Shown: piece after piece, positions 1,969-38,302 of the stretch | How the letters are laid out: each line of letters starts with the position of its first letter | Position numbering within the stretch: the stretch's first letter is position 1 | Source: an uncultured bacterium | GTDB lineage: Bacteria > Patescibacteriota > Minisyncoccia > UBA6257 > UBA9933 | DNA length: 43,428 nt | Direction: 5' to 3' | Assembly (NCBI GenBank): GCA_913009635.1 | Contig: CAJVXI010000006.1 | Coordinates: 1 to 43,428, forward strand | The notes under the pieces: generated by a model | What the model saw: only the letters and a program-made list of their open reading frames with translations | Databases searched by the model: none | What the model was told of the DNA's origin: nothing | Position numbers and translations under genes: made by a program

Positions 1969-2050
1969 AATAAGAGATTTTGACATTTGCTTTATTATAG
2001 CATTTTTAAATAAAGACATCACTTACTTCTATGATTTTTAGCGCAGTGAA
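1969..2050. repeat. 82-bp direct repeat, right copy (orphan htrA 5' end)
   Basis: Second copy of 1295-1376 with two mismatches. It carries the htrA -10 box and first codons, but the frame is not continued, so it is a remnant. The tRNA-Ser gene begins 33 bp further on. Confidence 0.9.
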
Positions 2051-2083
2051 GCCCGACTTCGCCAAGGCTTCGTCGGGTGAAAG

Positions 2084-25320: not shown

Positions 25321-25395
25321 TTATGAAACATAAAACATGAAGCACGAAACGTAATATAAGATTTTACTATATCCATTAATCACTATTCGCTATTC

Positions 25396-25440
25396 ACTAT
25401 GTTATATATGCGATCGCAAGTATAATATAGTAGAATTAAA
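25396..25440. repeat. GCGATCGC-centred palindromic repeat, copy 1
   Basis: An imperfect palindrome, identical to 26114-26158 at 43 of 45 positions. It contains TATAAT (25421-25426) and ends 3 bp before the PaaX-like start codon, so it may be that gene's promoter/operator. Confidence 0.8.
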
Positions 25441-25443
25441 ACA

Positions 25444-26058
25444 ATGAGAAAAGGAGATATTATTTTAAAAATGTTGGAAACTATTGAGCATTTTACATTC
25501 GGGATGGCTGAACTTTTCGGCGCTTTTTTAGACGCTGGATACGGCGCGTCATACAATAAAATCCAACATCAAACATCAAAGCGGCGAAATAATAATGATT
25601 GGCTAAATAGAGAAATAGAATTAAAAAGAAAGGCAAAGCAAAGGCACTATAATTTAATTTATAGCTTAAAAAAAGATAATTTAATTGAAGAAAAAATAAA
25701 TGGCGATAAAAAGTTTTTTACAATTACCAAAAAAGGCAGAGATAAATTATTATTACTAATAAATAAAAATAAAAAGATGCTTCCTGCGGCCTCCTATCAA
25801 AAAGAAAAAAGCGATAAATTCATTATTATTACTTTTGATATACCAGAAACAGAAAAAACAAAAAGAGAATGGTTAAGAGTGGTTATTAAAAATTTGGGAT
25901 TTAAAATGATTCAGAAAAGTGTCTGGATTGGACAAATAAAAATACCGAAAGAATTTTTGGACGATTTACTTAAATTAAGATTGGTTGATTTTATTGAGAT
26001 CTTTGAAATTAGCAAAACAGGAAGTTTAAAACAGGTTATTAAAAAGCTGTATAAATAA
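25444..26058 (+). CDS. PaaX-like regulator with Cas2-like C-terminal domain
   Basis: 204 residues. Residues ~1-110 contain a winged-helix-like part (LIYSLKKDNLIEEKINGDKK, FFTITKKGRDKL). Residues ~120-204 (KFIIITFDIPETEKTKREW, LGFKMIQKSVWIG) have the ferredoxin-like pattern shared by Cas2 and the PaaX C-terminal domain, including the leading beta-strand Asp. No CRISPR repeats or other cas genes are present, so a transcriptional regulator is more likely than an adaptation nuclease. It is the only gene between two near-identical 45-bp copies of a palindromic repeat, one covering its promoter. Confidence 0.7.
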   Translation: MRKGDIILKMLETIEHFTFGMAELFGAFLDAGYGASYNKIQHQTSKRRNNNDWLNREIELKRKAKQRHYNLIYSLKKDNLIEEKINGDKKFFTITKKGRDKLLLLINKNKKMLPAASYQKEKSDKFIIITFDIPETEKTKREWLRVVIKNLGFKMIQKSVWIGQIKIPKEFLDDLLKLRLVDFIEIFEISKTGSLKQVIKKLYK

Positions 26059-26113
26059 AAAGCAGTATAAATTTTTACATAAAATAAATTAATTTTGTGA
26101 CGTAAGTTAAATT

Positions 26114-26158
26114 ACTATGTTATATACGCGATCGCAAGTATAACATAGTAGAATTAAA
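26114..26158. repeat. GCGATCGC-centred palindromic repeat, copy 2
   Basis: 43/45 identical to copy 1 with an offset of 718 bp. It lies between the convergent ends of the PaaX-like gene and the response regulator, where no promoter is needed. Confidence 0.8.
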
Positions 26159-38227: not shown

Positions 38228-38255
38228 CCATTACAGTTAATTGTAATGGTTTTTT
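38228..38255 (+). terminator. Rho-independent terminator after fba
   Basis: CCATTAC-AGTTAATT-GTAATGG followed by TTTTTT. Confidence 0.85.
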
Positions 38256-38302
38256 ATTTTACTATGTTATACATGCGATCGCATGTATAACATAGTAAAA
38301 TA
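38255..38302. repeat. Perfect 48-bp palindrome, copy 3 of the GCGATCGC-centred repeat
   Basis: The strand is exactly self-complementary over 48 bp, centred on GCGATCGC with arms TACTATGTTATACAT. It is the same repeat as at 25396 and 26114. It ends 1 bp before the -35 box of the downstream regulator. Confidence 0.9.

Follow-up and report, generated by a model that had tools for sequence, protein, structure and literature searches.

A Cas2/PaaX-like gene framed by its own palindromes in Patescibacteria, a candidate single-gene mobile unit

Why does a small bacterial gene lie between two nearly identical palindromes? This question is raised by a locus in a 43,428-nucleotide stretch of DNA (hereafter, the window) from a Wolfebacteria-like Patescibacterium with a 713-kb genome. 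The related contigs bear the names of Candidatus Wolfebacteria and other Parcubacteria. As described in a first-pass annotation made from the letters of the window, two direct 45-bp repeats (43/45 identical, 718 bp apart) frame a gene for a 204-aa protein, which is the only gene between them (Table 1). At its core, the repeat consists of an imperfect palindrome of 38 bp, and for the 24-bp core of this palindrome 0.00 matches are expected according to dinucleotide shuffles. The upstream copy stops 3 bp short of the start codon; the downstream copy lies, again in agreement with the annotation, between two convergent gene ends (26058 and 26226). The string TATAAT is present inside the upstream copy (25421–25426), whereas its proposed use as the promoter of the gene is unproven, because none of the promoter-like pairs listed by the promoter scan makes use of it. 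The palindromes are absent from the terminator-like features of the terminator scan. The annotation had missed the perfect palindrome at a third place in the window, whose neighbours on either side are an aldolase-like gene that has a terminator-like hairpin and the following gene, encoded on the same strand, and likewise the solo copies on other contigs and three framed paralogues of the gene. Elsewhere in the window, two direct copies of a 94-bp sequence lie 674 bp apart and are 93% identical; this repeat, referred to as the P-loop unit, differs in sequence from the palindromes of the Cas2-like unit.

Table 1. Coordinates of the framed gene, its palindromes, and other repeats and units mentioned in the text. 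Positions without a locus or genome handle are those of the window.
Feature	Position	Strand	Description	DNA hairpin
Upstream copy	25395–25432, in repeat 25396–25440		imperfect 38-bp palindrome, core GCGATCGC	−5.2 kcal/mol, z −2.15
204-aa gene	25444–26058	+	N-terminal PadR/MarR-like winged-helix resemblance; C-terminal Cas2-like domain (PaaX_M)	
Downstream copy	26113–26150, in repeat 26114–26158		imperfect 38-bp palindrome	−7.2 kcal/mol, z −3.29
Solo copy	38255–38302		perfect 48-bp palindrome, 2 mismatches to window pattern	−19.4 kcal/mol, z −8.65
94-bp direct repeat	1295–1388 and 1969–2062		P-loop unit	
Dispersed palindrome	2909–2947; L021 1508–1548; L023 1157–1187		intergenic, AAACGGCTCA...TGAGCCGTTT	
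Short intergenic repeats	L019 near 660–700; L021 1110–1240; L022 905–980		ATCCCTGTTTAAAT / ATCCTTGAATAAATTCAAGGAT, own genome	
RAYT-type Y1 transposase units	L143 G020:C1:300400–303400; L144 G017:C1:101800–104600		with TATGTACGTCATCAGATGACGTACATA; same intergenic site	
Framed nucleotidase-like gene	L193 1501–2253 (G021:C3:210155–210907)		related palindromes 717 bp apart	
RAYT-type gene	L235 1158–2023 (G000 contig 15, own genome)		TCGGAAGTCCGACTTCCGA palindromes on both sides	
Perfect 35-bp palindrome	L234 1457–1491 (G000 contig 8)		inside open frame of another Y1 transposase gene	
Similar imperfect palindrome	L234 2024–2054		just past end of that Y1 transposase gene	

The genome-wide count did not return a palindrome that is abundant and unlinked to the gene, the outcome that the first-pass annotation had set against its own reading. 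Allowing up to three mismatches, the window-type 38-bp pattern occurs three times in the genome, each time within the window. A looser search with the core added seven places, five of which are solo copies (contigs 12, 14, 9, 11, and 5), while the other two flank the closest paralogue of the gene, on contig 13, as the two ends of its unit. Solo copies per genome are few in these pattern searches, which miss copies differing by more than three bases and leave out the contig-10 type; in this respect, the units differ from REPs, which usually reach more than 100 copies per genome. Regarding other repeats, a dispersed intergenic palindrome occurs in at least three places, and short intergenic repeats of another kind cluster beside solo palindromes in the same genome (Table 1).

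The C-terminal part of the 204-aa protein matches the Pfam families PaaX_M (E = 8.5e-12; 45.5 bits at a cut-off of 24) and Cas2 (E = 1.6e-5), the Cas2 scores being just over the Pfam and NCBIfam cut-offs (PF09827 and TIGR01573), and the N-terminal part shows a weak PadR/MarR winged-helix likeness. An AlphaFold model (pLDDT 77.6, pTM 0.46) gave E. coli PaaX as the first fold match, followed by many Cas2 structures. As every structure match has an E-value above 0.001, the assignment to the Cas2/PaaX fold is supported but not strong. Like the PaaX repressor (PF20803 family; PDB 8a39), the protein scores above the PaaX_M cut-off; unlike it, it comprises about 200 aa instead of the 305 aa in 8a39 and, with 14.3 bits, stays far under the cut-off of the full-length PaaX equivalog TIGR02277 (264.55). 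Its likeness to Cas2 lies in the motif FDIPE...R..LR..L...QKSVW, which aligns with Cas2-like proteins, and in D132, which aligns with the Asp of the Cas2-like protein 3exc and corresponds to the conserved aspartate of the Cas2 fold. All of the 133 short homologues have D132, R141, and S159; an Asp is found at the D132 position in 6/10 long homologues, and one of these long entries (L200) is likely a short protein whose start was called too early. Scans with the protein found no relative on viral contigs and, on plasmids, nothing but weak matches to Rhodococcus PaaX regulators, so that neither a phage nor a plasmid origin is indicated.

The genome encodes four PaaX_M genes, each located between two copies of its own palindrome type; the type on contig 4 is imperfect, with two nearly identical copies. 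Homologues of the protein were found in 38/61 genomes of the family and order, and the PaaX_M domain in 90/287 genomes across the phylum. For 139 loci with both flanks, many of them from metagenome-assembled genomes, the 250 bp before the gene were aligned to the 250 bp after it and the scores compared to those of flanks swapped between loci, a conservative control in that the swapped flanks also carry the CGNNCG core described below. This alignment-based test was used instead of a stricter symmetric-palindrome score, which proved too conservative with swapped controls because the loci have the core in common. Among short homologues (up to 228 aa; 129 sampled across the phylum), 116 (about 90%) had flanks matching above the 95th percentile of the swapped-flank controls, and 88 exceeded the 99th percentile. 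The long PaaX-like forms, which belong to the same phylum and domain family and served as an internal control, had matching flanks in 0/10 cases of this small sample. Framing is a family trait and a hallmark of the short form.

Position statistics were calculated for 103 loci chosen for having a matched pair (at least 24/32), a selection that inflates within-locus identity, and the informative part is the contrast of arm, spacer, and core within the set. The centre of the palindrome reads CGATCG, CGGCCG, CGGTCG, or similar, i.e., a conserved CGNNCG core. The outer arms vary between loci, but the two copies of one locus agree at about 88–95% of outer positions, whereas the spacer is looser, with about 72–85% agreement at most positions. 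This pattern is what one would expect of two sites recognised by a single protein. Across loci, arms resemble each other mainly where the proteins are close (N-terminal part above about 50% identity); the relation between arm similarity and protein identity is significant by permutation with a tiny rho of about 0.1, carried by close relatives. Palindrome centres lie at a median of 40 bp upstream of the start codon and 38 bp past the stop codon. In the 28 loci whose two copies are both asymmetric, 19 pairs are direct, 6 inverted, and 3 tied.

Signs of movement were seen both within the genome and between congeners. Between the window unit and the contig-13 unit, 80% of the nucleotides are identical from one palindrome to the other, while the flanks are unrelated; because this identity starts and ends at the palindromes, it was the framed unit that was copied. 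As expected of a mobile unit of any kind, the two are related, stand at unrelated sites, and lose their homology at the repeat. The neighbourhood of the contig-13 unit aligns in several other genera, which probably makes contig 13 the older location and the window unit the copy that moved. One site in genus g2 holds a framed Cas2-like gene in genomes G021 and G001 and a Y1 transposase with TATGTACGTCATCAGATGACGTACATA copies on both sides in G020 and G017 (the G020 protein being PF01797), a single case that may reflect a common hotspot. The palindrome type of G021 has two solo copies elsewhere in G021; no copy was found in G020, which is without that Cas2-like gene, and where one of the two intergenic stretches has its equivalent in G020, these palindromes are missing. 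Another palindrome type is represented by two framing copies and by solo copies in G017, G020, and G021, and was not found in G001, whose framed gene has different arms. Within g2, solo copies and whole units are present or absent by species. Several observations count against a mobile unit: neither an exact empty site nor a target duplication was found at the sites compared, copy numbers are low, the contig-13 locus is constant across several genera and looks vertical, and the upstream palindrome lies where an operator would. In the search for empty sites that the first-pass annotation had proposed, the compared sites instead hold the RAYT unit or other repeats in the relative.

Further loci were recorded alongside. 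In G009 and G018, which belong to one genus, one site (L051/L068) has flanks that are 76–89% identical, framed genes that are only 67% identical, and differing palindromes, as if one unit had replaced another. In the genome of the window, a RAYT-type gene is located between palindromes that contain TCGGAAGTCCGACTTCCGA, and one palindrome lies inside, and a similar one just past, another Y1 transposase gene (Table 1).

Taking these results together, we regard the 0.76-kb segment 25395–26158 as probably a REPtron-like single-gene mobile unit with a palindrome-specific Cas2-fold protein. The first-pass annotation had offered two origins, an autoregulatory operator that was duplicated, or a small mobile cassette with a palindrome-recognising protein. 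The cassette is now better supported, because framing marks the short forms (116/129 versus 0/10 long ones), because palindrome, gene, and palindrome were copied as one unit in this genome, and because units and solo copies differ between congeners; autoregulation may coexist with it. The unit is laid out like a REP–RAYT unit (REPtron), i.e., palindrome, gene, palindrome. Its protein would recognise its own palindrome as a dimer, using the common CGNNCG core and the locus-specific outer arms. Acting at both ends, possibly with DNA cleavage by the Cas2-like domain, it would copy or move the unit, which would leave or spread solo palindromes; the order of these steps is our suggestion. By binding the upstream copy, the protein would probably also repress its own promoter. 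To our knowledge, stand-alone proteins of the Cas2-like family have no known transposition or nuclease activity.

RAYTs (REP-associated tyrosine transposases) are Y1 (IS200/IS605-like) enzymes that carry an HUH motif and a catalytic tyrosine. Their genes are flanked by REPs in inverted orientation (PMC2817692). The Cas2-like units resemble this system in that one small gene has its own palindromes on both sides, solo copies are scattered between genes, repeats and protein go together, and sister species carry a RAYT unit at the genomic site of a framed Cas2-like gene. They differ from it in several respects. The protein is Cas2/PaaX-like and has no Y1_Tnp match in Pfam, and no histidine is present among the conserved columns of 73 homologues, hence no conserved histidine pair. 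The palindromes are AT-rich with a CGNNCG centre and without a GT(A/G)G head, and their orientation is direct in the window and mostly direct among asymmetric copies of the phylum.

We consider it rather unlikely, although worth serious attention, that the gene encodes a PaaX-like autorepressor. PaaX represses at its operator, and phenylacetyl-CoA relieves the repression. Applied to our locus, the upstream palindrome would be the promoter operator and the downstream one a second operator (for DNA looping or an antisense block), the solo palindromes would form the regulon, and copies would have arisen by ordinary duplication and recombination. The best fold match is indeed the repressor PaaX and the winged-helix resemblance would suit such a role, but the 10 long, true PaaX-like homologues sampled in the phylum are unframed. 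An operator would be expected near the start codon, where the upstream palindrome lies with its internal TATAAT, yet two solo copies in g2 (L179 and L190) appear, judged from open reading frames, between convergent genes, and solo copies are not retained between sister species. The profile of core and arms suits any dimeric DNA-binding protein, whereas the copying of the unit together with both palindromes argues against a mere repressor.

Set against the mobile unit driven by its own protein, an arrangement in which another enzyme, such as a host tyrosine recombinase or a RAYT, acts on the palindromes and the Cas2-like gene travels along as a passenger seems improbable. The contig-13 unit does stand beside a gene that reads as a tyrosine recombinase, in a neighbourhood common to relatives, and RAYTs occur in this genome; however, the RAYT units seen have palindromes of other sequence, and framing goes with the short Cas2-like form. 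Each Cas2-like gene has arms of its own, different from locus to locus, so that one common enzyme would need to read dozens of different arms. In G021, a nucleotidase-like gene with MutY-like and Nth-like genes as its neighbours is also framed by related palindromes, an arrangement that fits a passenger and is possibly a composite unit, or chance. In pdif modules and integron-like cassettes, one gene is bounded by short direct repeats, possibly sites of recombination; the Cas2-like units share this layout, but have gene-specific arms rather than one common site. Lastly, it is highly improbable that the protein is a Cas2 of the CRISPR-related or toxin-like (VapD-type) kind and the repeats incidental. 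Pfam and NCBIfam do give Cas2 matches, and Cas2 structures are among the fold matches, but CRISPR Cas2 is encoded together with Cas1 and a CRISPR array, and Cas1 was found in 0/21 genomes (own and 20 relatives) versus 9/14 control genomes; CRISPR involvement was rejected on this ground. The palindromes are not incidental, and in the window they enclose the gene alone. Compared to Cas2, the protein has an extra N-terminal half.

The recurrent framing suggests an undescribed one-gene mobile unit; we found no published description of the framed Cas2-like arrangement in the open-access literature of PubMed Central, and its undescribed status is thus unproven. By domain match alone, these genes would be labelled Cas2 or PaaX, in genomes in which no Cas1 was found. 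With less confidence, we propose that such units may occur across the Patescibacteria, that a Cas2/PaaX-fold enzyme, rather than an HUH, DDE, or tyrosine enzyme, may cut and join at cognate CGNNCG palindromes, and that the units may represent a convergent counterpart of RAYTs and a role of the Cas2 fold in DNA mobility outside CRISPR. If the protein were only a repressor, it would still be unusual in having its own gene enclosed, throughout a phylum, by a pair of near-identical operators. If the mobile unit is real, the short homologues would constitute a widespread family of very small (about 0.7–0.8 kb) palindrome-bounded units, in which a Cas2-fold protein takes the place held by RAYT transposases in REP units and the Cas2 fold is tied to DNA mobility outside CRISPR. 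It would also explain some intergenic palindromes found in Patescibacteria and provide a natural set of matched arm–protein pairs from which to learn how such a protein reads DNA.
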